Assembly: GCA_947172415.1 (NCBI GenBank)
Contig: OX359191.1
Location: forward strand, 4,030,001 to 4,094,000
Reading direction: 5' to 3'
Source: Chondrosia reniformis
Taxonomy: Eukaryota; Porifera; Demospongiae; Chondrillida; Chondrillidae
DNA length: 64,000 nucleotides
Part shown: piece by piece, positions 12,437-64,000 of the stretch
Layout: each line of letters begins with the position of its first letter
Position numbering within the stretch: the stretch's first letter is position 1
Notes under the pieces: model-generated
Told to the model about the DNA's origin: nothing
Seen by the model: only the letters and a program-made list of their open reading frames with translations
Database searches by the model: none
Program-made: the position numbers and the translations under genes

Positions 12437-12437
12437 A
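12040..12437. repeat. Spacer at the A/B palindrome centre
   Basis: Left of about 12,040 duplicon A is matched in inverted form by sequence starting at about 12,437. The ~400 bp between belong to the A/C-type satellite (matching about 62,470-62,753) and have no inverted partner. Unit polarity switches at the right edge of this spacer. Boundaries are read by eye and approximate. Confidence 0.7.
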
Positions 12438-13641
12438 GTGCATACAACTAGTATAGTTGTATGTACTAGTTTTTTGTTGCATGTACTACACTATATGGAT
12501 TCACTAATCATATGTACTAGTTAAATATTTATGTACTAATTATATGTAGTAGGTGTGTATTAGTTATTGGTCCTAGTTTTATGTACTCGTTCTATGTATT
12601 AGTAGTTGTATGAACTACTTGTATGTACTATCTTTATGTACTATTTATATGTACAAGTTATATTTTTATGTATTAGTTATATGTGGTAGATGTGTGTACT
12701 AGTTATATCTCCTAGTTGCAAGTACTAGTTGTGTGGACTAGCTATGTACTAGTTGCAAGGACTAGTTGTATGTACTAGTTGTATGGACTAGTACTAGTTA
12801 AATTTACTTGTTGGAGATACTAGTTTTATGTACTAGTTGTATGTACTCGTTGTATGTCCTATTTATTATTATTAGGTAAAAGTGTATGTTCTAGTTATAT
12901 GTGGTAGGTGTATGTAATATTTGTATGTCCTAGTTGTGTTTCCTAGTGTTGTGTAGGAGTTATTTACTAGTTGAATATTCAAGTTGGATGTTCTAGTATT
13001 ATGTACTCATTCTGTGAGCTAGTTGTATATACTACTTTCTAGTTGTATGTACTAGTTGTATATACTATTTATAATTACAAGGTATGTGTATTTACTAGTT
13101 ATATGTAGTAGGTGTATGTATTAGTTATATGTCCTAGCTGTTTGTCGTAGTTGTATGGACTAGTTGAATGTACTAATTGTATTTACTAGTTGTGGGTACT
13201 ATTTGGTATGTACTAGTTGTATGTACTAGTTGCATGTACTAGTTGTATATACTATTACCAGTTGAACGTAATAGTTGTATGTATATACCAATTGTTAATA
13301 TTAGCTAAATACTAGATGTATATTCAAGTTGTATTCTCTATAAAGTATTATATACTCCTTCTAAAAACTAGTAGTATTTACTAGTTTCCAGTTGTATGTC
13401 CTACTTGTAAGTACTTGTTGTATGTACAATGTGTATTTACCAGTTGTTGATTCTTGTACCAGTTATACTATGTACTAGGTAGGTTCTATTTGTATGTACT
13501 AGATACTTGTTGCATGTACTAGTTGTATGAACTAGTTTTATGAACTAGTTTTATGTACTGTTTATAAGTACTAGGTATATGTACCAGTTATATGTACTAG
13601 TAGTAGGTACTAGTTATATTTACCAGCTGTATTTACTATTT
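12437..13641 (-). repeat. 13-bp satellite, - polarity
   Basis: Inverted units (TGTATGTACTAGT) run up to the 3' end of the LINE fragment. The block is the inverse of 61,256-62,470 and of about 10,862-12,040. No gene was seen. Confidence 0.9.
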
Positions 13642-14352
13642 CAGGATATCAGGAAATCTTATTTAAACTGGGGAGGCCAATAGCCTGAGGCTACTACAAA
13701 GGCACCCAGTACAAAACCATATGTACAATAAATAAATAATAAATAAATAAATAAAATAGAATTGTCAATTCGGTTGTGTTAATATTGTTACATAATACAA
13801 ATTGTCCCTCATGCATTAGAATAAAAACGTTTACATAGTGCCGTAAAATTGTTGAGGTCGAGGTTAGGTGTTGCACGAATGGCTGTAGGTATACTGCGCC
13901 AGAGGGAAGCACCGGCAAAATTGAATGCCCTCTGTCCGAATGACGACCTGACCAAGGGAAGATTAAGTTGGGAAGTGGAAGAGGAGCGAGTGTTATGGTG
14001 GCAAGAAACATAAGAGGAGAGCCGAGACAGATAAGGTGGAGCCTGGGAGGATAGGCTGCAAAACATACACTGAGCCATGTGAAGTTTTCTTCTCAAGGTG
14101 AGAGTCGTTAATCCAAGTTCTTGAAGAGCAGCAGTGGAAGAAGAGTCACGACACCTATGAAGCACAATCTTGCAACCAAAGTTCAGCAGCAATTCCAAGC
14201 GGCGAGATTCATCTTGAGTACAGCCAGACCAGACGACATCACAATAGTCAAAGTGGGGAAGGATGTGTGATTTAAGATAAGTGAGGAGGAGAGAGTGAGG
14301 AAGAAACCAAGAGAGCCTACGAAGAAGGTTGAGACGACAGCTTACGTTAAGA
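13642..14352 (-). mobile_element. CR1/L2-like LINE fragment, copy in duplicon B (internally deleted)
   Basis: This is the minus-strand counterpart of 59,706-61,251. Its 3' end with the TATTTATT-rich tail and terminal stretch is retained, and it sits at the same target (ATTT at 13,638-13,641 and 14,353-14,356). Only about 711 bp remain against 1,546 bp in the other copy. The 5' boundary is the same, but after a few bases the sequence jumps to the part downstream of the catalytic RT motifs. So the reverse transcriptase core was lost by an internal deletion of about 835 bp, not by a separate truncated insertion. Confidence 0.88.
13809..14352 (-). pseudogene. C-terminal remnant of CR1-like reverse transcriptase ORF
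   Basis: The minus strand encodes the C-terminal part of the LINE protein: the thumb-side segment near LRRLSWF, then NFGCKIVLHR, and the end NFAGASLWRSIPTAIR, stopping at 13,809. This ending resembles the usual C-terminus of CR1/L2 proteins (a GxxLWNSLP-like motif followed by a short helix). The catalytic RT motifs are missing. The position that is a TAG stop in the other copy is a tyrosine codon here, so this remnant preserves the older state of that codon. Not functional alone. Confidence 0.8.
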
Positions 14353-15183
14353 ATTTGTGTGTACTAATTGTATGCACTAGTTGTATTTACTAGTTGTATG
14401 TACTCAATACCATTTGTATGTACTAGTCGAATGTAGTAGTTATTTGTACTAGTTGAATGTACTATGGCCTAATTGTATGTACCAGCTGTATGTACTAGAT
14501 ATTCGAACTAGTATTAGGTTCTAATACAAGTTATACTAGGTACTAGGAATGAACTAGTTCTATGAACTACTTGATTCTTTGTGTGAACTAGTTTTCTGTA
14601 CTAGTTGTATATACTAAATTTATGTAGTAGTTAGATGTATATGTACTAGTCATATGTAATAGTTGTATGTACTAGTTATATGTACTAGTTGCATGTACTA
14701 GTTGTATGTACTAGTAGTATATACTAGTTGTAGGGTCTAGTCCTAATTATGCTAGGTACTAGGGAGGTACTAGTTGTATATACTAGACACTAGTTGTATG
14801 TACTAGTTGTATGTGTACTAGTTATATGTACTAGTTGTATGTACCAGTTTTGTGTTATTGTTGTATGTACTAGTTGTGTGTACTATTTATATGTACTAGT
14901 TATATGTACTAGTTGTATGTACCAGTTTTGTGTTATTGTTGTATGTACTAGTTGTGTGTACTATTTATATGTGCTAGTTGTATGTACTACTTATATGTAC
15001 TCGTTACGTTTGTATGTACTGGGTGTATTTACAAGTTGCTTGTACTAGTTATATATACTAGTTGTACGTACTATTTATATGTACTATATATGTGTGTATG
15101 TACTAGATATATGTACTACTTGTATGTACTAGCTGTATTAGCTGGTTGTATGTACTAATTCTATGTACTAGTTGTATGTACTA
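14353..15183 (-). repeat. 13-bp satellite, - polarity
   Basis: Inverted satellite between LINE and MITE, matching inverted 59,061-59,705 and 10,061-10,857. It includes a near-exact 78-bp (6 x 13) tandem duplication starting at 14,818 and variant modules near 14,530 and 14,745. Open frames here are cysteine- and tyrosine-rich satellite translations, not genes. Confidence 0.88.
14818..14973 (-). repeat. 78-bp tandem duplication (two units of 6 x 13 bp)
   Basis: The units 14,818-14,895 and 14,896-14,973 are nearly identical over six satellite monomers, including the variant CCAGTTTTGTGTTATTG. Surrounding monomers differ much more, so this is a recent local expansion. Confidence 0.82.
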
Positions 15184-15691
15184 CAGGGCAGTCCACCTAA
15201 TTCGAATCTCTAGGGAATTTGAAATAACAGGAATTTTGAATTATCAGGTTTATGCACAAAATAGCAAAGTGATGTCTAAACACCAAATATAGATTTGAAA
15301 TATAATGAAAAAGAGAAGATTATGCAGCTAAGTAGTAGTAGCAATGTCCTTTTTTTCCTTCAAGATGGAGCGTTGTCCACGAGATGGATAATCTCTAGTT
15401 TTTGTTCCAGAATAAGTGATTGGTACAGTGAACGTTGCATACCTAGAGAATAACACTGTACTGAGAATGATTAATGACGATTTAGCTCAAATTCTTAACC
15501 GTTAAAAGTGTGATTACCTCCTTAATAACTATGAGCTTGCTTATTTGTGTTGAAATACTTCCGTATTCTCTACGTAGCAAACAAATCTTCCCAAAGAAAT
15601 TGATATACTGGGACTATACAGGGAACCGGAGTTCTATTCGAAATAGGTGAAATTTCGTCAAAAACGGATTCGAATTAAGTGGACTGCACTG
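15184..15691 (-). mobile_element. pogo/Tc1-mariner-like MITE, copy 2
   Basis: This is the inverted copy of the 508-bp MITE, with TA on both sides (15,182-15,183 and 15,692-15,693). It shares flank and internal variants with the copy at 58,551 against the copy at 9,552 (for example the AAGAATT-type tract and the TTCTTTGTA flank), which supports a closer B/C relationship. No coding capacity. Confidence 0.88.
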
Positions 15692-15693
15692 TA

Positions 15694-17246
15694 GTTCTTT
15701 GTAATAGATACCAACCAGTTGTATGTAGAAGATGTATGCACTAGTTCTTTGTACTAGCTATATACTAGTTGTATGTACTAGTTGTATGTATATACCAGAT
15801 TTGTGTACTAGTTAAATGTACTAATTTTATATATATACTAGTTGTGTGTACTAGTTTCTAGTTGTATTTACTAGTTTTATATACTAGTTTTATGTACTCT
15901 GTGGATGCACTATTTCTTTGAAAAAGTTATATTTTTATGTATTAGTTTTATGTAGTAGGTGTGTGTACTAGTTATATGTACTATTGAAAGTTCTAGTTGT
16001 ATGTATATACTACTTGTATGAACGAGAACTAGCTATATTTACTAGTTTTAGGTACTAGTTGTATGTATTAGTTCTATGCAGTAGTTGCATGTGCTAATTG
16101 TATACACATGTTTCGTGTACTAGTTGTATGTATATGCTAGTTGTATGTACCAACTATGTACTAGTTGTATGTTCTAGTTGTATCTACTAGATACTAGTTG
16201 TACGTACTAGTTGTAGGTACTAGTTATATTTACTATTTGTATGTACTATTTGTTTGTGTGTACTAGTTATATGTACTAGTTGTATGCGCTAGCTGTATGT
16301 ACTAGTTGTATGTATACTATTTACATTTACTAGGTATAGGTGTATGTACTAGTTATATGTAGTAGGTTTATGTACTAGTTATATGTCCTAGTTGTATGTA
16401 CTAGTTGAATGCACTAGTTGTATGTACTAGTTGTATGTACTAGTCACATGTACTAATTATATTTACTAGTTACTAATTTTATAAACTAGTTGTACCCACG
16501 AATTTACATGTACTGGTTATATGTACTAGTTAATAGTTGTGTGAACTAGTTGTATGACCTAATTGTAAATATTAGTTGTAAATACTAGTTGTGTGAACTT
16601 GTTGTTTGTATATAATAGTTGTATGTACTAGTTTCTAGTTGCATGTACTAGTTTTATGTACTAGTTATATACACTATATGGATGCACTATTCATATGTTC
16701 TAGTTATATATTTATGTACTAATTATATGTAGTAGGTATTTACTAGTTATAGGTCCTAGTTTTATGTACTCGTTCTATGTACTAGTAGTTGTATGAACTA
16801 CTTGTATGTACTATGTTTATGTACTATTTATATGTATTAGTTATATTTTTATGTATTAGTTATTTGTTGTAGATGTGTGTACTAGTTATATGTACTAATT
16901 GCAAATACTAGTTGTATGTACTAGTTGTATGTATATACTAGTTGTATGTACAAGTGAAGGTTCTTGTACTAGTTATACTAGGGGCTAAGAAGGTGCTAGT
17001 TCTATGTAGTAGATACTAGTCGCATGTACTAGTTATATGTACTAGTTATATGTACTAGTTACTAGTTGTATGAACTAGTTGTACCTATTAATTTTATGTA
17101 CTAGTTGTATGTACTAGTTGAATGTATATACCAGTTGTATGTATATACCAATTGTATGTACTAGTGTCTAGTTGTATTTACTATTTTTCTGTACTAGTTG
17201 TGTGGACTATGTGGATGCACGAGTTGTTTGAACTAGTTACATTTTT
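15694..17246 (-). repeat. 13-bp satellite, - polarity, with empty site of the intact retrotransposon
   Basis: Inverse of 53,469-53,701 plus 57,141-58,550 without the 3.4-kb element. Around 17,005-17,025 the sequence passes directly from the inverse of the right flank (TCTATGTAGTAGATACTAGT) into the inverse of the left flank (CGCATGTACTAGTTATATG). It is also two 13-bp units shorter than C with the element removed. No gene was seen. Confidence 0.85.
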
Positions 17247-19381
17247 GGGGCGCCCGAGGCTCCCCTATATTATTGTCAAAAATTATGTTAACGTATGGTT
17301 TCCTGTTCGTAGTCTTGTATACATATATATATATATATACAGTACAATTTACAATATACTAAGATAATCTAATATAAATAAATAAATAATATAATATAAT
17401 ATAAATAATTCGTATGACTCCAGGAAAAGACCTAGCAACAGAATGGGCATAGTATCATAAAGTTTAGGGTATAAAAGGATTGATTAAGGGATTTTTTATT
17501 TAAGTCTCGGTTTGGTAGAAAACGGAGGACAAAGTCTGTATATAAAATGCCATAGGACTATAGAAAACCTATGTGAAATTTATATTGAAACCAAGTGTTA
17601 TATTAATAAAAATTATCAATTGATCAGATCACTGTGAAACCGATATATATCATGGCACCTGTGTATGACAAACGTCTGGCGAAGTTTTGCTTAATTAAAA
17701 TTGCAACACCATCAAGATATAATGAAGAATGCAAGTTTACGATTGTGGAATCTGGTGATGTATTATGATGTTTCCCTAGTGCGTCACCAACACCTCGTTT
17801 GTTGCTCGGTACATATTTAATGGATTATCATGTGACGTTGGGAAAACGTCACGGCTCGTTGCAAAAGAAGATCATCCTTTCGAGAACGGCTATGACAAGT
17901 CGACGCTCTACTACGAGAAGGAGCTACAGAATAAACGAGTTGTAGCGAAGGTTAGATAAAGCGTATTTGTGTACGTTTCCGTTAAGTTTGAGGTAGAATT
18001 GTCCCTATATTGATGCAAAAGAAATTGGTTTAGTCGACCTTAATAAAACTTTGGTAATTGAAGCTCTGTCTTCTCTTCTTACGCTTTTTGTTCATATTTT
18101 ACTTGTCCATGTGTAGCCATTCCATACCTATGCCATTTTGTAACTTGTACACAAGGGACATCATATATGTATATAAAGGCCTTGGCCTTTTATGTCCCTT
18201 GTGTACAAGTTACAAAATGGTCTCTAACCCTGGTGATTATGCCAATGCATGCAACCAACCATCGGTGTTCTTAGCTCCCTCACAAGGCAAATCAAATCTG
18301 TGTGGCTATTAGCTGAGACCCCTTTAATACTGGAGCCTTTGTTGATATATGGCATGCAGATGCATCATCTTCAGTCTATACTAAGGTGTGAAAAGGTAAT
18401 TGGTAGGCCATGTGTTCTACCTAGCAATTGGGTGATCTGTATCAACTACTACTCTCTATGCAGTAGTTGAGGATTTCAAAACCTGCAACAGTACTAGTGT
18501 GACTAAAGTCTTGTGGTGTTTAAAATACTGATTATCCTAGGGGTCACTTGGATCTCTTTAAATTTGTAACTTGCACTGCATGTGTAGCTAGTACTTGATT
18601 GTAATTTTAATATTGTATAGTCACTTGGCCCTCTTAAATTTGTAACTTGTACTGTGTAGTATTTGATAGTAATTTTAATATTGCCAGTAACTTTCACTGT
18701 GTAGTGTACTTGAGTGTAATTAGCCTCACTGTACTTAAGACATTCACTATGAGCAATTTTGTTATGAGATTCTACTGTACACATGGAAAACACACACACA
18801 TGGATAAGAATAAGGCCTTGTTGAACATCAGTAAAATAAATTTACTAGTTCTGGACGTTTCAACCCGGAAGTCTTCATCAGTAATACAGGAAAGGGAATA
18901 TCAAGTAGTAAATTAGTAAATTCGTGTTCCTGAAGCTCAACAAGGCTTTATTCTCATAATGATCGCAACAAACACTCCTAATTCCTACACATGGACAAGT
19001 AAAAATATGAACAAAAAGCGTAAGAAGAGAAGACAGAGCTTCAATTACCAAAGTTTTATTATATATATATATATATATCTGTCAAAAAATGGCGGACGTT
19101 CGGCTAGCTTCCGTTTTCTAGCTTAAAATTAGCTTTCTCTTCCTTAGCGTAGAACATTGAACAAACGAAATGGACTTAAAAACCACCCTTACTAATGCTA
19201 TGTAAAGTGAAGCTTGCGAAAAACGTTTTCTACGAGATATGGCCTTGAAAAATTGACGACCAACAAGAGTCGATCGGAAACCAGTTAACCGGCTATCTAT
19301 GGGAACATGCCAAGTAGTTTGAGTTTACTTAGGGGCGCCTGGCGCTCCACGAGTTTTTCAACTCAAAATACTTGTTTAATA
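17247..19381 (-). mobile_element. Composite non-coding element, copy 2
   Basis: Inverted copy of the block at 4,581-6,736, with the same nested structure: GC-rich ends (GGGGCGCC at 17,247 and again near 19,332), (TA)n tracts, the 76-bp inverted repeat pair (near 18,045-18,117 and 18,989-19,062), the hairpin near 18,130-18,220 and the small fold-back unit near 18,810-18,960. It is nearly identical to copies 1 and 3, apart from scattered substitutions and microsatellite length changes. No gene was recognised. Confidence 0.78.
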
Positions 19382-20624
19382 TATTAGTTATATGTAGTAG
19401 GTGCGTGTACTAGTTATATGTACTAGTTGAAAGTACTAGTTGAAAGTACTAGTTGTATATACGTACTAGTTGTATGTACGTACTAGTTGTATGTACTAGA
19501 ACTAGCTATATTTACTAGTTTTAGGTACTAGTTGGGGGTATTAGTTGTATGTAGTAGTTGCATGTAGTAATTGTATGTACAGGTTCTGTGTACTAATTGT
19601 ATGTATATACTAGTTGCATGTACTAGTTGTACGTACTAGTTGTATCTACTAGTTGTATTTACTATTTGTATGTTCTATTTATATGTCTTTGCACTAGTTA
19701 TATGTACTAGTTGTAGCCCTAGCTGTATGTACTAGTTGTATGTACTATTTACATTTACTAGGTATACTTGTGTGTACTAGTTATATGTTCTTGTTGCATG
19801 TACTAGTTGCATGCACTAGTTGTATGTACTAGTTGTATGTACTAGTCACATGTACTAATTATATTTACTAGTTACTAATTCTATGAACTAGTTTTAACTA
19901 AGAATTTTATGTACTATTTGTATGTACTAGTTGTCTGTACTAGTTGTATGTATATACCAGTTGTATGTACTAGTTAAATCTACTAGTTTTATACGTATAC
20001 TAGTTGTATGTATTATGTGCATGTACTATTCACATATACTAGTTATATGTTTATGCATTAGTTATATGTGATAGGTGTGTGTACTTGTTATATGTAGTAG
20101 GTGTGTGTACTTGTTATATGTAGTAGGTGTGTGTACTTGTTATATGTACTAGTTGAAAGTACTAGTTGTACCTGCTAACTGTATGTACACGTTCTGTGTA
20201 CTAGTTGCATGTTTATACTAGTTATATGTTTATTTTAGTTGTAGGTACTAGCTTTGTACTAGTTGTATGTACTAGTTGTATGTACTAGTTTTTTGAATTA
20301 GTTGTAGGTTCTGGTACAAGTTATACTAGGAACTAGGAAGGAAGTCGTTCTCTATACTACTTGTGTTGTTTGTTTGAACTAGTTTTATGTACTAATTGTA
20401 TGTACTAGTTGTATGGACTAGTTGTATGTACTTGTTGGATGTACTAATACTAGTTATATTCACTAGTTGTAGGTGCTAGTTGTATGTACAAGTTGTGTGT
20501 GGTAGTTGTATGTACTAATTTTATGTACTAGTTAGATGTACTAGTTGTATGTACTAGTTGTGTGTACTAGATATGAACTAGTTGTATGTACAAGATACGG
20601 GCACAAGTTTTTTGTAGTAGCTAT
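19382..20624 (-). repeat. 13-bp satellite, - polarity
   Basis: Inverse of 50,688-51,330 and of 4,360-4,580 near its left edge. A 26-bp (2 x 13) motif TATATGTAGTAGGTGTGTGT is repeated three times in tandem near 20,063-20,145; a similar expansion occurs near 43,790-43,850. No gene was seen. Confidence 0.88.
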
Positions 20625-20898
20625 CAGAGAGTACGGTAGTACTCTCTAAGTAGGGAAGTAGGGACTATGCACATCACTTCTATGTTTGGGCGCATCGATC
20701 CCTACTTCTAGTATATCCATGATGCGCCCAAACATAGAAGTGATGTGCATAGTTAAGTTTCAGTATGCCACTTCTGCAATGTTAGCCTTACCATATGATC
20801 ACTTTCTTGTTTCGTTATTTTTTTAGATATGATAGATACGGTTGCAGGGACTGCCATCCCTACTTCTCATTTCATTTTTTAAATGTTTTATTTACTTG
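20625..20898 (+). mobile_element. Fold-back element with perfect 32-bp hairpin, copy 1
   Basis: About 275 bp of non-satellite DNA. A perfect 32-bp inverted repeat (20,665-20,696 and 20,721-20,752) forms a hairpin with a 24-base loop. GAAGTAGGGA (20,655-20,664) has its inverse TCCCTACTTC both in the loop (20,699-20,708) and near the far end (20,857-20,866), so two alternative folds are possible. A further palindrome (AGAGAGTAC/GTACTCTCT) marks the left edge. The inverted copy is at 50,404-50,687; duplicon A lacks it. The class is unknown: MITE-like fold-back or SINE-like are both possible, and no target duplication was resolved. Confidence 0.75.
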
Positions 20899-23800
20899 TA
20901 GACTAGTTGTGTGAACTAGTTGTACCTACTAATTTTATGTACTAGTTAAATGTGCTAGCGTTATATATATACTAGTTGTATGGACTAGTTTCTAGTTGTA
21001 TGTACTAGGTTTATGTACCCGTTCTTTGTACTAGTTGTATGTACTTTTTATAATAACTAGGTATATGTGTATGTACTAGTTGTGTGTAGTAGGTGCATGT
21101 ATTAGTTATATGTCTTAGTTGTTTGTACTAGTTGTATGTTCTAGTTCAATGTAATAGTTGTATGTACTAGTTGTATGTTCTGTTTGTGTGTACTGTTAGG
21201 ATGTACTAGTTGTATGTACTAATTGCATGTACTAGTTGTATGCACTAGTTTTATGAAGTAGTTCTATTTTTATTTACTAGTTGTAGGTGCTAGTTATATG
21301 TAGCAGATGTATGTACTATTTGTATCTACTATTTGTATGTACTATGTGTATGTACTATTTATAAGTACCAGTTATATGTATGTAGTAGTTATATGTTTGT
21401 GAATTAGTTATATAGACTAGTTGTTTGTCCTAGTTGTATGTACTAGTTGAATGTACTAGTTATATGTACTTGTTACTAGTTGTATGAACTAGTTGTATGT
21501 TCCAGTCGTATGTACTAGTTGCATATACTGGTTATATGTACTAGTTAATAGTTGTGTGTAGTTGTACGACCTAATTGTAAATACTAGTTGTATTTTAGCT
21601 GGTTGTTTGTATATAATAGTTGTATGAACTAGTTAAATTGACTAGTTTTATGTACTAGTTGTATGTACTATATTTATGTACTAATTATATGTGTATGTAC
21701 TAGTCATATGTAATAGTTATATGTACTAGTTATATGTACTAGTTGCATGTACTAGTTGCATGTACTAGTTGTATTTACTAATAGTATATACTAGTTGTAG
21801 GTTCTATTCCTAATTATACCAGGAACTAGGGAGTTACTAGTTGTATATACTAGACACTAGTTGTATGTACTAGTTATATGTACTAGTTATATGTACTAGT
21901 TGTATGTACCAGTTTTGTGTAATTGTTTTATGTACTACTTGTATATACTATTTATATGTACTAGTTGTATATACTAGTTGTATGTACTACTTATATGTAC
22001 TCGTTACATTTGTATGTACTGGGTGTATGTACTAGTTGTTTGTTCTAGGTATATAACCTAGTTGTACGTACTATTTGTATGTCCCATATATGTGTGTATG
22101 TACTAGGTATATGTACTACTTGTATGTACTAGCTGTATTAGGTGGTTGTATGTACTAATTCTATATACTAGTTGTATGTACGAGGTGTATGTACTAGATA
22201 TGAACCAGTTGTATGTACAAGATGCATGCACTAGTTCTTTGTACAAGCTATATACTAGTTTTATGAACTAGTTGTATGTACTAGTTGTATGTACTAGTTG
22301 TATATACTAGTCGCATGTACTGGTTATATGTACTAGTTACTAATTGTTTGAACTAGTTGTAGCTATTAAGTTTATGTACTAGTTGGATGTATATACCAGT
22401 TGTATGTACTAGTTAAATGTACTAATTTTATATATATACTAGTTGTATGTACTAGTTTCTAGTCGTCTTTACTAGTTTCATGTAATAGTTGTATGTACTA
22501 TGTGGATGCACTATTTATTTGAATTGGTTACATTTTTATGTATTAGTTAGGTGTTTGTTCTAGTTATATGTCCAAGTTGTATGCACTAGCTATATGTACT
22601 ATATGCATGTACTGTTAGGATGTACTAGTTGTATGTACTAGTTGCATGTACTAGTTGCATGTACTAGTTGTATTTACTAATAGAATATACTAGTTGTAGG
22701 TTCTATTCCTAATTATACCAGGAACTAGGGAGTTACTATTTGTATATACTAGACACTAGTTGTATGTACTAGTTATATGTACTAGTTATATGTACTAGTT
22801 GTATGTACCAGTTTTGTGTAATTGTTGTATGTACTACTTGTATGTCTCTTTGTATGTATATCCTAGTTTTATGTACTAGTAAAATGTACTAGTGTTATAT
22901 ATATACTAGTTGTATGGACTAGTTTCTAGTTGTGTGTACTAGTTTTATGTACCCGTTCTATGTACTAGTTGTATGTACTATTTATAATTACTAGGTATAT
23001 GTGTATGTACTAGTTGTATGTAGTAGGTGTATGTACTAGTTATATGTTCTAGTTGGATTGTACTAGTTGTATGTTCTAGGTGATTGTACTAGTTGTATGT
23101 ACTAGTTGTATGTACTATTTGTGTGTACTGTTAGGATATACTAGTTGTATGTACTAATTGCATGTACTAGTTGTGTGCACAAGGTTTATGAAATAGTTCT
23201 ATTTTTATTTACTAGTTGTAGGTGCTAGTTATATGTAGCAGATGTTTGTACTATTTGTATCTACTATTTGTATGTACTATGTGTATGTACTATTTATAGG
23301 TACCAGTTATATGTATGTAGTAGTTATATTTGTGAACTAGTTATATATACTAGTTGTATGCACTAGCTGTATATACAAGTTGTGTGTACTATTTATAATT
23401 ACAAGGTATATGTATATTTACTAGTTATATGTAGTTGGTGTATGTACTAGTTATATATCCTAGTTGTTTGTCCTAGTTGTATGTACAAGTTGCATGTACC
23501 AGTTATATGTACTAGTTAATAGTTGTGTGAAATAGTTTTACGACCTAATTGTAATTACTAGTTGTATGAACTAGTGGTTTGTATATAATAGTTGTATGAA
23601 CTAGTTGTTTGTATATAATAGTTGTATGAACTAATTAAATGTGCTAGTGATATATACTATATGGATGCACTATTCATATGTACTAGTTATATATTTATAT
23701 ACTAATTATATGTGGTAGGTGTGTACTAGTTATAGGTCCTAGTTTTTTGTACTCGTTCTATGTACTAGTAGTTGATTGAACTACTTGTGTATACAATTTA

Positions 23801-31824: not shown

Positions 31825-31832
31825 ACACTATG

Positions 31833-50687: not shown

Positions 50688-51330
50688 CTACAAAAAACTT
50701 GTGCCCGTATCTTGTACATACAACTTGTTCATATCTAGTACACACAACTAGTACATACAACTAGTACATCTAACTAGTACATAAAATTAGTACATACAAC
50801 TACCACACACAACTTGTACATACAACTAGCACCTACAACTAGTGAATATAACTAATATTAGTACATCCAACAAGTACATACAACTAGTCCATACAACTAG
50901 TACATACAACTAGTGCATGCAACTAGTACATGCAACAAGAACATATAACTAGTACACACAAGTATACCTAGTAAATGTAAATAGTACATACAACTAGTAC
51001 ATACAGCTAGGGCTACAACTAGTACATATAACTAGTGCAAAGACATATAAATAGAACATACAAATAGTAAATACAACTAGTAGATACAAATAGTAAGTAG
51101 AACTAGTACATGCAACTAGTATATACATACAATTAGTACACAGAACCTGTACATACAATTACTACATGCAACTACTACATACAACTAATACCCCCAACTA
51201 GTACCTAAAACTAGTAAATATAGTTAGTTCTAGTACATACAACTAGTACGTATATACAACTAGTACTTTCAACTAGTACTTTCAACTAGTACATATAACT
51301 AGTACACGCACCTACTACATATAACTAATA
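50688..51330 (+). repeat. 13-bp satellite, + polarity
   Basis: Short satellite between the fold-back element and composite copy 3. Its right end (51,110-51,330) matches 4,360-4,580 almost base for base. No gene was seen. Confidence 0.88.
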
Positions 51331-53468: not shown

Positions 53469-53701
53469 AAAAATGTAACTAGTTCAAACAAATCGTGCAT
53501 CCACATAGTCCACACAACTAGTACAAAAAACTACTAAATACAACTAGACACTAGTACATACAATTGGTATATACATACAACTGGTATATACATTCAACTA
53601 GTACATACAACTAGTACATAAAATTAATAGGTACAACTAGTTCATACAACTAGTAACTAGTACATATAACTAGTACATGCGACTAGTATATACAACTAGC
53701 A
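53469..53701 (+). repeat. 13-bp satellite flank ending in target duplication
   Basis: Satellite flank matching 6,737-6,905. Its last 14 bp (53,688-53,701, ATATACAACTAGCA) are the left copy of the target site duplication of the retrotransposon. Confidence 0.88.
53688..53701 (+). repeat. Left target site duplication of the retrotransposon
   Basis: ATATACAACTAGCA, identical to 57,127-57,140. Confidence 0.82.
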
Positions 53702-53840
53702 ATATTATACAACTTATAACGAGTTGGAAAAAATGGCGTCTTTCAAGTTCGAGCCAAAATAAGATCCTTCCTTGTTAGATTTGTTATAGAAATCATTCTG
53801 ACCGACCGAATCAAACGGATATCTGTTCTCTAGAGCGGCA
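53702..53840 (+). other. 5' leader of the retrotransposon
   Basis: A 139-bp leader precedes the ATG. It begins ATATTATACAACTTATAAC, partly resembling the target, and contains a short ATG-initiated frame (ATGGCGTCTTTC near 53,733) that is out of phase or soon closed. Any internal promoter is not recognisable by eye. Confidence 0.6.
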
Positions 53841-56800
53841 ATGCCCTGTTGTGGATGTAACCGCAATGGTCGCTGTAAGAACTGTTCCTGCGTGAAGGAA
53901 GGGAAGAAGTGTGACAGTTGTCTCCCTCACCAGACAGGGAAATGCTTCAACTTGAATCGTGAAGAATCATCTTCTGAACAATCCTTGGAATTACAACCTA
54001 CCGAATCAGTAAGAACTCAAAGTGATCAGCCGCCCGTTTCCTGTACGACAGTTTCATACGATAAATGGCCATCTCCTGATCCACAGACGGCCGCTTTTCG
54101 ATGGGGTTCACTCGATGGGAAGGTCTTTTCTGACCTCACAGCGGCTGCATACGATGAAGTTATACACTGGAAAAGAAACCTCTTTCTAGTGCCATCAGGA
54201 TCTTCTGGGAAAAACTTTGTGGCAGAACTGGCCCGCCTCTGGCAAGCCTTCGCTGACTGCTCTACCCTTGAAGGCATTGCGATGAAGGCAAGTACCATCT
54301 TACAGGTCTTGCTTCTACAAAAACCAAGTAAACACAGCAAAAGCAAAGACAATGTAACACACCTGAAAAGGAGGCTTTACCTTTGGCACAGAGGGGACAT
54401 CCAATCACTCCTAAGGGAAGGTCGTTGCATTCAGGAACATCTCCACAGATCACCAAGACCAACTGATAGTGAGTTAATTGCACAAACCTTCAAACGCTTG
54501 ATGATGCAAGGGAAGATCCAAAGTGCACTAAGACACCTGTCTAGAAAAACAAGTGGTGGGGTCCTAACTCTGGAAGACCTCGTGCCAGAGACAACCGATA
54601 GTGGTGAACGACAATTCCGCTCCACCCTTAGTGTACTACGGGACAAACATCCTCCAGGAAAGCCACCTAATGAAGATTCCCTGCTTAACAACACCACCCC
54701 CCAACTGGTTGACCCTATTCTTTTTGAACATTTGAATGCAGCCACTATCCGCCAAGCAGCCATGCGTATTCATGGAGCAGCAGGTCCATCAGGACTAGAC
54801 GCTCATGCATGGAAGCGATTGTGCTCATCTTTTGGACAGGCTTCATACAGCCTCTGCACTGCAATGGCTGAGGTGGGTCGCCGCATATGTACCACATTTG
54901 TCCATCCAAACAGCTTGAGTGCTTTTGTCGCTTGCCGACTAATCCCTTTAGACAAATGCCCTGGAGTAAGACCTATAGGAGTAGGGGAGGTCCCAAGACG
55001 AATCATAGCAAAGTCTGTGCTTCGTATCATTGGTTGGGATATTGGAAAAGCGGCAGACCCTCTTCAGCTATGTTCTGGGCAGGAGGGGGGATGTGAAGCA
55101 GCAGTACATGCCATGCGACAGATATTCAGAAGCCCTGAGACTGAAGGCATCCTCCTGGTGGATGCCACAAATGCCTTTAACACCATTAACAGGCAGGCTG
55201 CCCTCCATAACATCAGCATCCTATGTCCTCCTTTAGCACCTATTTTGATCAACACCTATAGAGCACCAGTCAGGATGGTCATCACAGGAAGTGGAGAAAT
55301 TGAATCAACAGAAGGTACAACACAAGGGGACCCCTTGGCAATGGCCATGTACGCTCTAGCAATTACCCCATTGATCCAGCAGCTGAGAACAAGAAATCCA
55401 GAAGCCAGTCAAGTGTGGTTTGCCGATGATGCGACATGTGCTGGTACCTGCACACAACTGAGAGCTTGGTGGGAAAATCTATCTTTAAGTGGACCCACCT
55501 TCGGATATCATCCCAATGGTTCCAAAACACATCTAGTGGTGAAAGAAGAACACGAGGAAAGGGCCAGACAGATATTTAGAGACACTGACATACAAGTCTC
55601 CATTCATGGGAAACGCCACCTAGGTGCTGCTCTCGGTTCCAGGACCTTTACCGAGGAATATGTCCGTGACAAAGTACAAGGTTGGCTCCAGGAGATATCT
55701 CACCTATCTGAAATAGCCATCTCCCAGCCACATGCTGCCTACGCTGCCTTTGTACATGGCCTATCTAGTCGCTGGTCATACCTGTCACGAACAATTCCAG
55801 ACATTGATGATTTACTACTACCTCTGGAGGCTGCCATTCAGCAAACCCTGATTCCTGCCCTGACAGGTCGGGCAACCTGCTCTGACCTTGAGCGCGAGCT
55901 GCTGGGCCTTCCTGCTAGATTAGGTGGGATGGCATTGGCAAACCCCGCAACAAAAGCTGGCGAAATTTTTGCCGCCTCAGAAGAACTTACAATGCCCCTT
56001 GTAGCCCTGATAGTCTCACAAGAGTCCAACCAAGTGATTGAGGCCGGCCAGATCATGTCCATCAAGCAAGACATTCGGCATAAGAACAGACAGAGGCAGG
56101 ATAAGAAAGCCAAAGAGGTATACGATCATCTCTCCCCCCATCTGCAGCGTGCAGTTGACCTGGCCAAAGAGAAAGGATCTTCTTCCTGGCTGACAGTCAC
56201 TCCATTGGAAGAGCATGGATTCTACCTAAACAAGGGGGAATTTAGAGATGCACTATGCCTAAGATATGGATGGACCCTAAACAACCCTCCCCAAACATGC
56301 AACTGTGGAACAGCGTTCACTGTTGATCATGCCATGATATGTCCAATGGGTGGCTTTCCGACCATCCGCCACAATGAGATCCGTGATATCACTGCCTCAT
56401 TGCTCACCGAGGTATGCCACAATGTTGCCACAGAACCTCCCTTACAGCCACTGACAGATGAAACATTTCATCTACGTTCAGCAAATGTTGCAGATGGTGC
56501 TCGCCCAGACATCCGTGCCAGGGGTTTTTGGAGCAAAGCTCAGGACGCATTCTTTGACATACGGGTTTTTCACCCAAACGCGCCCAGCAACCGTTCCTCC
56601 TCATTGGCAACTGCATACAAGAAGCATGAGGCTGCTAAGAAAAGAGAATATGCCCAGCGCATACGGGATGTTGAACATGGAGTATTTACACCCATTGTCC
56701 TCTCCACTGTAGGAAGTATGGGAAGGGAGGCAACCATCTTCTACAAGAGGCTGGCAGACCTGGTTGCACAGAAGCAGCAAAGGCCATATGCCCTTGTCAT

Positions 56801-56948
56801 GAATTGGTTGAGATGCCGTCTGTCGTTTGCTATACTTAGGTCCGCCATCATGTGCATCCGTGGAAGTCGTTCCTCTCTACATCACCCAATCTGTGAGGTG
56901 GACATATCTCTTGCTGCCTCTGAGGGACGCATCTCAACAAACCATTGA
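53841..56948 (+). CDS. Non-LTR retrotransposon protein: CXC-like zinc domain, reverse transcriptase, CCHC, restriction-like endonuclease
   Basis: An intact 1,035-residue ORF. Residues 1-37 form a cysteine-rich motif (C3, C4, C6, C12, C15, C17, C24, C27, C35) like a single CXC/tesmin-type repeat, a probable nucleic acid binder. The reverse transcriptase carries RPIGVGE (377-383), LVDATNAFN with catalytic D441, TQGDPLAM (Q495-P498) and FADD with D529/D530, so all three catalytic aspartates are present. After a thumb and linker region, C820-x-C822-x7-H830-x3-C834 is a zinc-knuckle-like motif, followed by RHN (843-845). RPD (888-890) and FFDIRVF with D906 then fit the PD-(D/E)xK restriction-like endonuclease, with lysines in the following YKKHEAAKK segment. 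In this family the protein nicks the target and primes cDNA synthesis from the nick. Residues 38-250 are not recognised. No frameshift or stop was found. Translation could start only at this ATG with the cysteine motif intact. Confidence 0.9.
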   Translation: MPCCGCNRNGRCKNCSCVKEGKKCDSCLPHQTGKCFNLNREESSSEQSLELQPTESVRTQSDQPPVSCTTVSYDKWPSPDPQTAAFRWGSLDGKVFSDLTAAAYDEVIHWKRNLFLVPSGSSGKNFVAELARLWQAFADCSTLEGIAMKASTILQVLLLQKPSKHSKSKDNVTHLKRRLYLWHRGDIQSLLREGRCIQEHLHRSPRPTDSELIAQTFKRLMMQGKIQSALRHLSRKTSGGVLTLEDLVPETTDSGERQFRSTLSVLRDKHPPGKPPNEDSLLNNTTPQLVDPILFEHLNAATIRQAAMRIHGAAGPSGLDAHAWKRLCSSFGQASYSLCTAMAEVGRRICTTFVHPNSLSAFVACRLIPLDKCPGVRPIGVGEVPRRIIAKSVLRIIGWDIGKAADPLQLCSGQEGGCEAAVHAMRQIFRSPETEGILLVDATNAFNTINRQAALHNISILCPPLAPILINTYRAPVRMVITGSGEIESTEGTTQGDPLAMAMYALAITPLIQQLRTRNPEASQVWFADDATCAGTCTQLRAWWENLSLSGPTFGYHPNGSKTHLVVKEEHEERARQIFRDTDIQVSIHGKRHLGAALGSRTFTEEYVRDKVQGWLQEISHLSEIAISQPHAAYAAFVHGLSSRWSYLSRTIPDIDDLLLPLEAAIQQTLIPALTGRATCSDLERELLGLPARLGGMALANPATKAGEIFAASEELTMPLVALIVSQESNQVIEAGQIMSIKQDIRHKNRQRQDKKAKEVYDHLSPHLQRAVDLAKEKGSSSWLTVTPLEEHGFYLNKGEFRDALCLRYGWTLNNPPQTCNCGTAFTVDHAMICPMGGFPTIRHNEIRDITASLLTEVCHNVATEPPLQPLTDETFHLRSANVADGARPDIRARGFWSKAQDAFFDIRVFHPNAPSNRSSSLATAYKKHEAAKKREYAQRIRDVEHGVFTPIVLSTVGSMGREATIFYKRLADLVAQKQQRPYALVMNWLRCRLSFAILRSAIMCIRGSRSSLHHPICEVDISLAASEGRISTNH

Positions 56949-57126
56949 CAATACTATATAGACTTGTAGCTTTGATTTTTTTAAAGACACTGTCAAAATC
57001 CATCACGTATTAATAATCTCTTGTAGATGAGCAATTAGGCAGTTTTTAATTCTTCTTTTGAATGTATAGCATCACTTCACTATTTTAACTCATTTGTTGA
57101 ACACTAGTTATTTATTATGAGATTAC
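56949..57126 (+). other. 3' untranslated region of the retrotransposon
   Basis: A 178-bp AT-rich stretch from after the TGA stop to the right target duplication. It has a run of seven T and several TATT motifs but no poly-A tail or simple terminal repeat. In related elements this part is bound by the protein to prime reverse transcription; that role is inferred here. Confidence 0.7.
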
Positions 57127-57140
57127 ATATACAACTAGCA
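57127..57140 (+). repeat. Right target site duplication of the retrotransposon
   Basis: ATATACAACTAGCA, identical to 53,688-53,701. The satellite continues at once after it. Confidence 0.82.
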
Positions 57141-58550
57141 CATACAACTAGTATCTACTACATAGAACTAGTACCTTCTTAGCCCCTAGCATAACTAGTA
57201 CAAGAACCTACCACTTGTACATACAACTAGTACATACAACTAGAACATACAACCAGTACATAGCTAGTACATACAACTAGTATATACATACAACTAGTAT
57301 ATACATACAACTAGTACATACAACTAGTATTTGCAATTAGTACATATAACTAGTACACACATCTACAACAAATAACTAATACATAAAAATATAACTAGTA
57401 CATATAAATAGTACATAAACATAGTACATACAAGTAGTTCATACAACTACTAGTACATAGAACGAGTAAATAAAACTAGGACCTATAACTAGTAAATAAC
57501 TACCACATATAATTAGTACATAAATATATAACTAGAACATATGAATAGTGCATCCATATAGTATATATAACTAGTACATAAAACTAGTACATGCAACTAG
57601 AAACTAGTACATACAACTATTATATACAAACAACAAGTTCACACAACTAGTATTTACAACTAGTATTTACAATTAGGTCATACAACTAGTTCACACAACT
57701 ATTACCTAGTACATATAACCAGTACATGTAAATTCGTGGGTACAACTAGTTCATAAAATTAGTAACTAGTAAATATAATTAGTACATGTGACTAGTACAT
57801 ACACCTAGTACATACAACTAGTGCATTCAACTAGTACATACAACTAGGACATATAACTAGTACATAAACCTACTACATATAACTAGTACATACACCTATA
57901 CCTAGTAAATGTAAATAGTACATACAACTAGTACATACAGCTAGCGCATACAAATAGTACATATAACTAGTAAACACCAACAAATAGTACATACAAATAG
58001 TAAATATAACTAGTACCTACAACTAGTACGTACAACTAGTATCTAGTAGATACAACTAGAACATACAACTAGTACATAGCTGGTACATACAACTAGCATA
58101 TATATTCAACTAGTACAAAAAACATGTGTATACAATTAGCACATGCAACTACTACATAGAACTAATACATACAACTAGTACCTAAAACTAGTAAAAATAG
58201 CTAGTTCTCGTTCATACAACTAGTATGTACATACAACTAGAACTTTCAATAGTACATATAACTAGTACACACACCTACTACATAAAACTAATACATAAAA
58301 ATATAACTTTTTCAAATAAATAGTGCATCCACAGAGTACATAAAACTAGTATATAAAACTAGTAAATACAACTAGAAACTAGTACACACAACTAGTATAT
58401 ATATAAAATTAGTACATTTAACTAGTACACACATCTGGTATATACATACAACTAGTACATACAAGTAGTACATTATTCTAGTTCATAAAACTAGTATATA
58501 GCTAGTACAAAGAACTAGTGCATACATCTGGTATCTATTACAAAGAACTA
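57141..58550 (+). repeat. 13-bp satellite, + polarity
   Basis: Direct match to about 8,150-9,551 of duplicon A and inverse of 15,694-17,000 of duplicon B, with the module CTTCTTAGCCCCTAGCATAA at 57,175. No gene was seen. Confidence 0.9.
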
Positions 58551-59058
58551 CAGTGCAGTCCACTTAATTCGAATCCTTTTTTGACGAAATTTCACATATT
58601 TCGAATAGAACTCCGGTTCCCTGTATAGTCCCAGTATATCAATTTCTTTGGGAATATTTGTTTGCTACGTAGAGAATACGGAAGTATTTCAACACAAATA
58701 AGCAAGCTCATAGTTATTAAGGAGGTAATCACACTTTTAACGGTTAAGAATTTGAACTAAATCGTCATTAATCATTCTCAGTACAGTGTTATTCTCTAGG
58801 TATGCAACGTTCACTGTACCAATCACTTATTCTGTAACAAAAACTAGAGATTATCCATCTCCTGGACAACGCTCCATCTGGAAGGAAAAAAGGGACATTG
58901 CTACTACTACTTAGCTGCATAATCTTCTCTTTTTCATTATATTTCAAATCTATATTTGGTGTTTAGACATCACTTTGCTATTTTGTACATAAACCTGATA
59001 ATTCAAAATTCCTGTTATTTCAAATTCCCTAGAGATTCGAATTAGGTGGACTGCCCTG
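58551..59058 (+). mobile_element. pogo/Tc1-mariner-like MITE, copy 3
   Basis: A 508-bp copy with terminal inverted repeats CAGTGCAGTCCAC and GTGGACTGCCCTG and TA duplications at 58,549-58,550 and 59,059-59,060. It shares the flank CAAAGAACTA with the B copy, while A has CATACAACTA there. No coding capacity. Confidence 0.88.
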
Positions 59059-59060
59059 TA

Positions 59061-59705
59061 GTACATACAACTAGTACATAGAATTAGTAAATACAACCAG
59101 CTAATACAGCTAGTACATACAAGTAGTACATATACCTAGTACATACACAGATATATAGTACATATAAATAGTGCGTACAACTAGTGTATATAACTAGTAC
59201 AAACAACTAGTACATACACCCATTACACACAAACGTAACAAATACATATAAGTAGTACATACAACTAGTGTCTAGTATATACACCTAGTACCTCCCTAGT
59301 ACCTAGCATAATTAGGACTAGACCCTACAACTAGTATATACTACTAGTACATACAACTAGTACATGCAACTAGTACATATAACTAGTACATACAACTATT
59401 ACATATGACTAGTACATATACATCTAACTACTACATAAATTTAGTATATACAACTAGTACAGAAAACTAGTTCATACAAAGAATCAAGTAGTTCATAGAA
59501 CTAGTTCATTCCTAGTACCTAGTATAACTTGTATTAGAACCTAATACTAGTTCGAATATCTAGTACATACAGCTGGTACACACAATTAGGCCATAGTACA
59601 TTCAACTAGTACAAATAACTACTACATTCGACTAGTACATACAAATGGTATTGAGTACATACAACTAGTAAATACAACTAGTGCATACAATTAGTACACA
59701 CAAAT
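59061..59705 (+). repeat. 13-bp satellite, + polarity, ending in LINE target
   Basis: Matches 10,061-10,861 of duplicon A, with an internal deletion relative to A. It ends with the AAAT (59,702-59,705) that is repeated after the LINE. Confidence 0.88.
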
Positions 59706-61084
59706 TCTTTCCTGAATCCTGGAAGTGTGCTTGGGTTAAGCCACTCCACAAAGGCGGAGATCGTGTCTCCCCCACAAATTACCGACCCATTTCTCTGCTT
59801 CCAGTCTGCAGTAAACTTCTAGAAAGGTGTGTCCAGGAGCAGTTTTCTTCTCACCTCATACAAAACGACCTTCTCTTCCCTTATAAATCTGGATTTCGGC
59901 CCCAGCATTCTACCCAAACGCTTCTTCTTCACTGCTTGGATGACTGGTACAAGGCTCTGGACAGAAGACAGTTCATCGGGGTTGTGTTTCTTGACATCTC
60001 CAAAGCTTTTGACACTGTGAACCATGATCTTCTTTTGTCTAAGCTTTCCCAACTTGGTTTCTCCTCGTCTACAGTTGCTTGGTTTAAGTCTTATCTTTCT
60101 GATCGTTGCCAGGTTACTCGTGTCAGTGATTCATTCTCCTCTCCTGGTTTTCCCACAACTGGTGTTCCCCAAGGCTCTGTGCTTGGTCCTTCTCTCTTCT
60201 CTGCCTTTATCAATGACCAGCCTTCAGTCCTGCCTGCTGATTCTGTTGTTCTCTTTGCTGATGACACTGCCATCTACATCACGAGTAGCAATCTTGCCTT
60301 TTTAAACTCTTCACTTCAACAGTGTCTAGATGCAACCAGCCTGTGGATGGCCAGCAATGGACTGCAACTGAATGCAAGCAATACAAAATGTATGCTCTTT
60401 CACTCTAGTAGAAGAAAAATTGAGACTGGCTTGGACGTTCTTGTTGATGGTGTAACTGTTGATCAGGTACGAGTGTTCAAGTATCTTGGTGTGCTTATAA
60501 ACGATACCCTAACTTGGAGTGATCATGTTGACATGATTTGTAGAAAAGTAAGCTGTCGTCTCAACCTTCTTCGTAGGCTCTCTTGGTTTCTTCCTCACTC
60601 TCTCCTCCTCACTTATCTTAAATCATACATCCTTCCCCACTTTGACTATTGTGATGTCGTCTGGTCTGGCTGTACTCAAGATGAATCTCGCCGCTTGGAA
60701 TCGCTGCTGAACTTTGGTTGCAAGATTGTGCTTCATAGGCGTCGTGACTCTTCTTCCACTGCTGCTCTTCAAAAACTTGGATTAACGACTCTCACCTTGA
60801 GAAGAAAACTTCACATGGCTCAGTGTATGTTTTGCAGCCTATCCTCCCAGGCTCCACCTTAGCTGTCTCGGCTCTCCTCTTATGTTTCTTGCCACCATAA
60901 CACTCGCTCCTCTTCCACTTCCCAACTTAATCTTCCCTTGGTCAGGTCTTCATTCGGACAGAGGGCATTCAGTTTTGCCGGTGCTTCCCTCTGGCGCAGT
61001 CTACCTACAGCCATTCGTGCAACACCTAACCTCGGCCTCAACAATTTTGCGGAACTATGTAAATGTTTTTATTCTAATGCATGA
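59705..61084 (+). pseudogene. CR1/L2-like reverse transcriptase, 5'-truncated and with premature stop
   Basis: The reading frame enters from satellite DNA at 59,681, but LINE coding starts at about 59,705. Residues below count from that upstream ATG. Visible motifs are NYRPISLLPV, FLDISKAFDTVNHDLL (D105), GVPQGSVLGP (161-170) and FADDTAIY (D194/D195), followed by KYLGV and the C-terminal region. The apurinic endonuclease domain and ORF1 expected upstream are missing. A TAG at 60,860-60,862 (after SSQAPP) stops the frame; the same codon is tyrosine in the B copy. The family's usual C-terminus follows in the same frame to 61,084. Catalytic residues are kept, but the protein is incomplete at both ends and should not support retrotransposition. 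Confidence 0.87.
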
Positions 61085-61251
61085 GCGACAATTTGTATTA
61101 TGTAACAATATTAACACAACCGAATTGACAATTCTATTTTATTTATTTATTTATTATTTATTTATTGTACATATGGTTTTGTACTGGGTGCCTTTGTAGT
61201 AGCCTGAGGTTATTGGCCTCCCCAGTTTAAATAAGATTTCCTGATATCCTG
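59706..61251 (+). mobile_element. 5'-truncated CR1/L2-like LINE, copy in duplicon C
   Basis: A 1,546-bp insertion that starts within the reverse transcriptase domain and keeps the 3' end: the C-terminal coding part, an untranslated region with TATTTATT runs, and the terminal TTTCCTGATATCCTG. AAAT on both sides (59,702-59,705 and 61,252-61,255) suggests a 4-bp target duplication; duplicon A has the empty form with one AAAT. Severe 5' truncation is usual for CR1/L2 elements. The B copy (13,642-14,352) is the same insertion carried by the inverted duplication. Confidence 0.9.
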
Positions 61252-61255
61252 AAAT

Positions 61256-64000
61256 AGTAAATACAGCTGGTAAATATAACTAGTACATACTACTAGTACA
61301 TATAACTGGTACATATAACTAGTACTTATAAACAGTACATAAAACTAGTTCGTAAAACTAGTTCATACAACTAGTACATGCAACAAGTATCTAGTACATA
61401 CAAATAGAACCTACCTAGTACATAGTATAACTGGTACAAGAATCAACAACTGGTAAATACACATTGTACATACAACAAGTACTTACAAGTAGGACATACA
61501 ACTGGAAACTAGTAAATACTACTAGTTTTTAGAAGGAGTATATAATACTTTATAGAGAATACAACTTGAATATACATCTAGTATTTAGCTAATATTAACA
61601 ATTGGTATATACATACAACTATTATCTTCAACTGGTACATAACTTGTACATACAAATAGTATATACATCTAGTACATGCAACTAGTACATACAACTAGTA
61701 CATACCAAATAGTACCCACAACTAGTAAATACAATTAGTACATTCAACTAGTCCATACAACTACGACAAACAGCTAGGACATATAACTAATACATACACC
61801 TACTACATATAACTAGTAAAAACACATACCTTGTAATTATAAATAGTACATACAACTAGTACATATAACTAGAAAGTAGTATATACAACTAGCTCACAGA
61901 ATGAGTACATAATACTAGAACATCCAACTTGAATATTCAACTAGTAAATAACTACTACACACAACTAGGAAACACAACTAGGACATACAAATATTACATA
62001 CACCTACCACATACAACTAGAACATACACTTTTACCTAATAATAATAAATAGGACATACAAATAGTACATACAACTAGTACATACAACTAGTACATAAAA
62101 CTAGTATCTCCAACAAGTAAATATAACCAGTACTAGTCCATACAACTAGTACATACAAATAGTCCTTGCAACTAGTACATAGCTAGTCCATACAACTAGT
62201 ACTTGCAACTAGTACATATACCTAGTACACACATCTACAACATATAACTAATACATAAAAATATAACTTGTACATATAAATAGTACAAAAGATAGTACAT
62301 ACAAGTAGTTCATACAACTACTAGTATATAGAACGAGTACATAAAACTAGGACCTATAACTAATACACACCTTCTACATAAAATTAGTACATAAATATAT
62401 AACTAGTACATATGATTAGTGCATCCATATAGTATAGTACATGCAACTAGAAACTAGTACATACAACTAATATATACACAAAACTAGCACATGTAATTAG
62501 TTCATATAACTATTATATACAAACAACTAGTTCATACAACTAGTATTTACAATTAGGTCGTCCAACTAGTTCACACAACTAATAACTAGTACATATAACT
62601 AGTACATTCAACTAGTACATACAACTAGGACAAACAACTAGGATATATAACCAGTACATATTCCAACTACATATAACTAGTAAATAAACATATACATTGT
62701 AATTATAAATAGTACATACAACTAGAGCATACCGCTAGTGCATACAACTAGTATATATAACTAGTTCACAAACATATAATTACTACATACATATAACTGG
62801 TACTTATAAATAGTTCATACACATAGTACATACAAATTGTAGATACAAATAGTACATACATCTGCTACACATAACTAGTACCTACAACGAGTACATATAA
62901 ATAGAACAAGTTCATAAAACTAGTGCATACAACTAGTACATGCAACTAGTACATACAACTAGTACATCCTAACAGTACACACAAATAGTACACACGAATA
63001 GTACACACAACTAGTACATACAACTAGTACATTGAACTAGAACATACAACTAGTACAAACAACTAGGACATATAACTAGTACATACACCTACTACATACA
63101 ACTAGTCCATACAACTAGAAACTAGTCCATACAACTAGTATCTATATAACACTAGTACATTTAACTAGTACATAAAACTAGTATATACATACAAAGAGTA
63201 CATACAACTAGTACATAAAATTAGTAGGTACAACTAGTTCACACATCTAGTAATTAGTACATATAACTAGTACATGAGACTGTGATTTACAACTAGTACA
63301 TACAATTAGTACATAAAACTAGTTCAAACAAACAAACAAGTAGTATATATAACGAGTTCCTTCCTAGTTCCTAGTATAACTTTTACTAGAACCTACACTT
63401 ACTTCAAAAAGCTAGTACATACAACTAGTACAAACAATTAGTCACTAGTACATACAACTACTACATACAACTAGTACATATAAATACTACATTTGATTGG
63501 TACATACAAATAGTATCGAGTACATACAACTAGTATATACAGCTAGTACATTCAACTAGTATATACAACTACTACATGAACAGGAAACCAGTACATACAA
63601 CTAGTACATAGCTACTACATACAATTAGTATACACATACAACTAGTGTATACAACTAATACATACAATTAGTACATACAACTACTACATCAAACTACTAC
63701 ATACAACCAGTACCTACAACTAGTACATAAAACTAGTACATACAATTAATACGTTAATGTAGTACTAACAACTAGTATATACACCTAATGCCTACTTAGT
63801 ACCTAATATAACTAGTACTAGAACCTACAACTAGTACATACAGCTGGCGCATACACGTAGTATAGGCAACTTGTACATACAACTGTTACATACAACTACT
63901 ACATATAACCAGTACATACATATATAACTAGTATATAAAAATAGTACATACACCTAGTACATACAACAAGTACATACAAAACGTACATAAAACTAGTACA
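61256..64000 (+). repeat. 13-bp satellite, + polarity, continuing beyond the window
   Basis: To 62,753 this follows duplicon A (10,862-12,432). From about 62,700 to the end it follows 37,650-38,900 in the same direction, including the module near 63,795 (CCTACTTAGTACCTAATATA). The larger repeat unit therefore begins again here. No gene was seen. Confidence 0.88.

Follow-up and report, generated by a model that had tools for sequence, protein, structure and literature searches.

The stretch of DNA considered here, 64,000 nucleotides of contig OX359191.1 (positions 4,030,001 to 4,094,000; referred to as the window, with coordinates counted from its first base), consists mostly of a degenerate AT-rich 13-bp satellite with the consensus TAGTTGTATGTAC and its complement, interrupted by non-satellite elements. 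Embedded in this satellite are three copies of one tract, an inverted middle copy between two direct outer ones, of which the first is cut off by the edge of the window. From left to right we observe copy 1 (A; 1-12,032, minus strand), which runs off the left edge, the fold J1 (12,441-12,463), copy 2 (A1 plus X; 12,454-35,985, plus strand), the fold J2, copy 3 (X reversed plus A2; 36,474-62,469, minus strand) and a flank that is again on the minus strand. A map of satellite polarity shows the same organization, with flips at 12.45 kb and 36.47 kb and none in the 61-64 kb region.

Since the satellite matches itself throughout the window, inverted self-matches were sought across all 64 kb with 20-base words that were each unique on their strand, and the matches were then chained and aligned. 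Of the 7,748 inverted word pairs obtained, 6,706 have midpoints between 35.0 and 37.5 kb and another 938 between 11.5 and 13.5 kb, leaving 104 (1.3%) outside both clusters, a signal that far exceeds the chance expectation from the shared 13-bp satellite. The alignment of the two arms around the larger cluster, anchored from 12,609-35,960 against 62,314-36,494, contains 20,112 matches and 307 mismatches (98.5% identity over 20,419 aligned bases) along with 46 gaps. The largest of these correspond to 3,465 bp of additional sequence in the right arm and 1,549 bp in the left, followed by gaps of 835, 642, 576 and 484 bp. This comparison confirms the imperfect palindrome of about 50 kb proposed in the initial annotation, whose arm coordinates and spacer of about 490 bp prove to be accurate within about 20 bp: read base by base by eye, the arms extend over 12,454-35,985 and 36,474-62,469 and enclose a spacer of 488 bp (35,986-36,473). 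This second spacer, at J2, is satellite whose polarity matches that of copy 2 (plus strand), and its best other match in the window reaches about 75%. The structure had also been taken to have existed for some time, in agreement with the approximately 1.5% substitutions, the many indels and the 3.4-kb insertion that we find. However, while the palindrome stands as a long imperfect inverted repeat, it is not a free-standing structure: the homology passes 12,454 into a third copy. Its arms represent the second and third copies of an inverted triplication; the first copy occupies 1-12,032 and matches 12,454-26,004 in inverted and 45,622-62,469 in direct orientation. With this additional copy, what has to be explained is no longer a simple palindrome but the product of a double strand switch.

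Six landmarks reported earlier as mirrored were recovered in both arms, the matching being based on order and size since no landmark coordinates had been given. These are a 112-bp non-satellite insert (31,824-31,935 and 38,911-39,030; previously described as 91 bp), a satellite polarity island (about 26,200-27,825 and 43,708-45,333), a putative fold-back element of 312 bp (20,590-20,901 and 50,403-50,715), a putative composite element of 2.1 kb (17,239-19,384 and 51,328-53,476), a putative miniature inverted-repeat transposable element (MITE; 15,183-15,716 and 58,520-59,059) and a long interspersed nuclear element (LINE; 13,618-14,375 and 59,683-61,275). For the composite, the MITE and the fold-back element we keep the labels of the initial annotation, and the LINE alone is identified by its protein. 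Its fragment in copy 3 (59,702-61,252, plus strand) encodes a reverse transcriptase domain (RVT_1, E 2.3e-33, in the frame 59,672-60,862), and the fragment in copy 2 (13,638-14,353, minus strand), which occupies the same site, has an internal deletion of about 835 bp. The corresponding site in copy 1 is empty and uninterrupted. Copy 1 also lacks the 312-bp fold-back element and, along with it, about 43 bp of satellite.

The sequences around J1 bear directly on how the three copies arose. A double switch predicts that copies 1 and 3 should share the spacer at J1 while copy 2 lacks it, and that copy 3 should continue beyond its end without flipping. This first spacer (12,033-12,453, minus strand) is satellite that belongs to copy 1, and its ortholog lies immediately beyond copy 3 at 62,470-62,755: when 12,455-12,033 is aligned with 62,755-62,470, 4 of 286 aligned bases differ and 137 columns are gaps, the extra 137 bp in copy 1 being a tandem duplication. 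No ortholog was found in copy 2, where the best match across the full spacer is 86% (23,341-23,719) and a shorter one reaches 89% (34,754-35,054); both lie many kilobases from the position expected for an ortholog. Past 62,755 the satellite continues on the minus strand with unchanged polarity and without a fold up to the end of the window (62,470-64,000 as a whole). Thus, on the J1 side, both the distribution of the spacer and the unflipped continuation of copy 3 are as predicted.

Consequently, we propose that the window is probably part of an AT-rich 13-bp satellite array that underwent inverted triplication via two strand switches. Under this proposal, a replicating strand would have moved to the right, copying copy 1 and then a further 280-420 bp or so past what later became the boundary of copy 2. 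It would then have switched to the complementary strand, copying back through at least 23.5 kb, before a second switch restored the original direction and allowed copying to continue into the original right flank. Such a course would leave folds at about 12,454 (J1) and about 36,474 (J2), and three copies with the middle one inverted. The copies now differ by 1.9-2.7% in pairwise comparison and by many indels, and copy 3 alone carries a retroelement; the patchwork character of copy 2 described below is most readily attributed to gene conversion between neighboring inverted copies or to initial template switching between non-identical homologs. The inverted triplication needs no function, and any effect it has would be one of structural instability.

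Several observations weigh against this proposal in its simplest form. To begin with, copy 1 leaves the window, and the counterpart of the J1 prediction, that the second spacer should occur in copies 1 and 2 and be absent from copy 3 with the left flank intact, concerns sequence to the left of the window. Further, the three copies are unequally diverged. Without filtering, the identity of copy 1 is 96.5% with copy 2 and 94.0% with copy 3, falling to 81-87% in some windows; this poorer alignment arises because parts of the copy-1 satellite are non-orthologous, and these were filtered out. The three-way alignment has 19,001 columns, and the three-way counts that follow use those that survive a local filter (7,718 at its middle setting), which removes gaps and satellite that aligns poorly. 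In these sites copies 1, 2 and 3 have 122, 56 and 87 private changes, respectively (chi-square p 4e-6), and the pairwise differences are 2.32% between copies 1 and 2, 2.72% between 1 and 3 and 1.87% between 2 and 3. Along with the LINE site, empty in copy 1 and filled in the other two, these unequal branches reject a single event from one template combined with a clock. A fuller account has to bring in conversion, different parental haplotypes or two separate events. Finally, the statistics on mosaicism given next are optimistic in their p values, because the cuts at 17,040 (mosaic) and 24,500 (inner versus outer half) were chosen post hoc.

Below 17,040 in copy-2 coordinates copy 3 is the odd one out at 48 sites and copy 1 at 36, as against 39 and 86 beyond it. 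Whichever of three filter levels is applied, a circular-shift test of this contrast gives a p of about 0.01; p values from block permutation are 0.001-0.025 over nine settings, and a runs test gives a z of -3.1. Between copies 2 and 3 the mismatches are over-dispersed (p 1e-11), with 0.99% in the inner half versus 1.99% in the outer half. They leave a mismatch-free interval of 1,792 bp (26,243-28,035) that covers most of the polarity island, whereas none of 5,000 random placements of the mismatches left an interval longer than 913 bp. The substitutions between these copies comprise 153 transitions and 154 transversions; 11 of the 46 gaps are of a single base, 2 of these 11 lying in runs of 5 or more, and some of the many indels among the copies amount to one or two satellite units. 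The copies look mosaic, which suggests conversion between the arms; conversion between neighboring inverted copies would explain why patches of copy 2 resemble copy 1 and copy 3 in alternation. The distribution of the LINE is explained equally well by two unlike homologs at the origin or by two successive events.

A broader version of the strand-switch proposal, which appears doubtful to us, is that the satellite grows by repeated replicative strand switching besides unequal exchange, resulting in a ladder of triplications of different ages that are homogenized by conversion. Each round would add a flipped pair of copies of tens of kilobases, and the older polarity island of the arms and another in copy 1 (6,942-7,678) would represent previous rounds or ones of lesser extent. 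However, no close inverted source of either island is present in the window, the best other matches being 73% and 79%.

On the whole unlikely is a stepwise origin, wherein a direct tandem duplication gave rise to copies 1 and 3, the LINE entered copy 3, and an inverted copy of copy 3 was then placed between them. The common LINE site of copies 2 and 3 and the empty site of copy 1 would follow directly from such a history, as would the distance between copies 2 and 3 being smaller than either distance to copy 1. On the other hand, it requires two events with coinciding boundaries, and in the vicinity of J1 copy 2 has fewer mismatches with copy 1 (17 in 1,000 aligned bases) than with copy 3 (29), so that conversion would be needed here too.

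The anatomy of the folds bears on whether the arrangement might be an artefact, namely chimeras folded back during whole-genome amplification, reads with a missed SMRTbell adapter or the head-to-head joining of two haplotypes. By eye, the join at J1 has about 5 bp of homology (GTATA/TATAC, with a 3-nt slip) and that at J2 has 1 bp. Being inverted, with short spacers and microhomology, the joins do match amplification chimeras: in one report, 406 of 475 such chimeras were inverted, and their joins show short complementarity and a deletion of the sequence in between (PMC1855051), and palindromic chimeras are also described as entering assemblies (PMC6218980). Nevertheless, such chimeras mostly arise when one molecule folds on itself, which predicts identical arms beside the fold, while the arms here differ by 3.5% beside J1 (7 mismatches between copies 1 and 2 in the nearest 200 aligned bases, and 14 in the nearest 500) and by 0.6-1.1% beside J2 (3 mismatches between copies 2 and 3 in the nearest 500 and 11 in the nearest 1,000). 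The figures at J2, with only 1 mismatch in the nearest 300 aligned bases, would by themselves be weak counter-evidence. A read with a missed adapter should fold again at about 62.5 kb, where there is no fold, and the distribution of the first spacer and the unflipped sequence beyond copy 3 likewise count against such reads. The stop-free frame of 1,048 codons in copy 3 favors good base accuracy, and joining of haplotypes by overlap would not be expected to produce joins of 1-5 bp. We accordingly regard an artefact as improbable. Even more so are breakage-fusion-bridge cycles, which would be highly improbable as a source of the successive inverted copies: although successive inverted duplications with short spacers are their expected product, a second cycle would duplicate the first fold, whereas copy 3 instead carries the ortholog of the first spacer and runs on unflipped through 62,470-64,000, and placing the fold farther right would still leave that spacer misplaced.

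J1 is further marked by a perfect inverted repeat with 10-bp arms around 3 bp. Among eight polarity flips in the window, arms of 10 bp occur at J1 and at the left edge of the left-arm island, and those at the other six measure 5-8 bp; 2 of 400 random spans reach 10 bp. We place no weight on these repeats, because the meeting of units of opposite polarity would explain them. In a comparison of the first spacer with the flank to the right of the polarity island the identity is 76-82%, other satellite stretches giving 70-91%; J2 differs (one window).

The insertion of 3,465 bp that is confined to copy 3 harbors a retroelement with an open frame of 1,048 codons (53,802-56,948, plus strand), uninterrupted by stops, encoding a reverse transcriptase (RVT_1, E 4e-08). 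The three solved relatives recovered at E values up to 0.1 are all R2 retrotransposon proteins (E 0.001-0.04). By eye, the N-terminus of the protein is rich in cysteine, and its C-terminus resembles a restriction-type endonuclease. The element (53,689-57,140) is bounded within the satellite by exact 13-bp copies at 53,689-53,701 and 57,128-57,140. The length of this flanking sequence equals one satellite unit, and these are its only two occurrences on that strand of the window. Going by this sequence context, the insertion may have been directed to the satellite. As for the LINE protein, no relatives were found among the viral contigs scanned. The LINE and the satellite make a eukaryotic host probable, and the element types would at most hint at a sponge, a cnidarian or some other invertebrate.

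With respect to the satellite itself, autocorrelation in four stretches is dominated by multiples of 13, with weaker lags at 84, 97, 1,887, 2,128 and others, and no single higher-order period stands out in these stretches. A literature search with one 13-base form of the satellite word returned no match. The polarity island is 99.94% identical between the arms, as against differences of about 1-2% in neighboring 500-bp windows, and its left edge is rearranged between them. We considered and rejected the island as an old fold-back copy of its neighbor: besides its mirror copy, the best matches listed are at 69-73%, like those of other satellite. In copy 1 the segment 6,942-8,271 consists of more than 1 kb of extra satellite, including the private island mentioned above; it sits near the position of the 3.4-kb retroelement insertion of copy 3, and copy 2 has neither. 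Copy 2 in turn contains 1.55 kb of satellite (33,020-34,570) with no counterpart in copy 3, and since its best match elsewhere in the window is about 73%, it did not arise by recent duplication of another part of this stretch. At 3,502-3,625 a 57-bp unit is repeated 2.2 times in tandem, with 100% identity between the copies, amid 13-bp units that are 64% alike, which suggests a very recent local duplication.

What we describe is a known architecture in an unusual place, an aged inverted triplication inside a satellite array, and it may be compared with previously described systems. The fold-back inverted duplications formed at double-strand breaks resemble it in their fold-back annealing near inverted repeats (PMC10622511). 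However, they pass through a dicentric that needs stabilization, while here the spacer ortholog and unflipped satellite follow copy 3. The closest likeness is to the inverted triplications of human duplication-inverted triplication-duplication (DUP-TRP/INV-DUP) rearrangements and of origin-dependent inverted-repeat amplification (ODIRA) in yeast, both of which feature three copies, an inverted middle and two folds (PMC4352052, PMC10766186). As in DUP-TRP/INV-DUP, the spacer of one fold is found only in the outer copies, the flank is retained on the visible side, and the joins have little homology; in the human cases, 14 of 16 Jct2 sequences are reported with 1-4 bp (PMC4352052). ODIRA proposes an inverted triplication as a common precursor (PMC10766186). 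Its yeast junctions have repeats of about 5 nt lying 40-80 nt apart, unlike the spacers of 421 and 488 bp seen here, and where it has short inverted repeats, J1 has 5 bp with a slip and J2 has 1 bp. The model also calls for a replication origin within the amplified segment. Nevertheless, an ODIRA route would be compatible with these spacers, because the model allows for their later enlargement, which the same paper describes (PMC10766186). The triplications compared come from human patients and yeast selections, in contrast to the present one, which lies within a satellite and is both old (about 2% divergence) and mosaic. An aged satellite triplication with three distinguishable copies would reveal the fate of such palindromes over time, in terms of divergence, conversion and spacer change.

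The nearest parallel among satellites, the macro-dyad symmetries of Tribolium, shares with the polarity map of this window the presence of inverted satellite subarrays on the kilobase scale (PMC13081366). In Tribolium these are between a few and tens of kilobases long, the longest being 75 kb, and there are thousands of arrays with conserved inversion sites, whereas here we have one locus at which J1 is unlike J2. The Tribolium satellites derive from a 110-bp element (T. madens), one of them having 704-bp monomers, in contrast to the degenerate 13-bp unit of this array (PMC13081366). According to the authors of that work, such symmetries have to date been documented exclusively in Tribolium (PMC13081366). 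The host of the present array is likely to be another taxon, and if it is, the array would extend satellite macro-dyad symmetry beyond that genus. Unlike in Tribolium, the landmarks here reveal the duplication of the whole arm.

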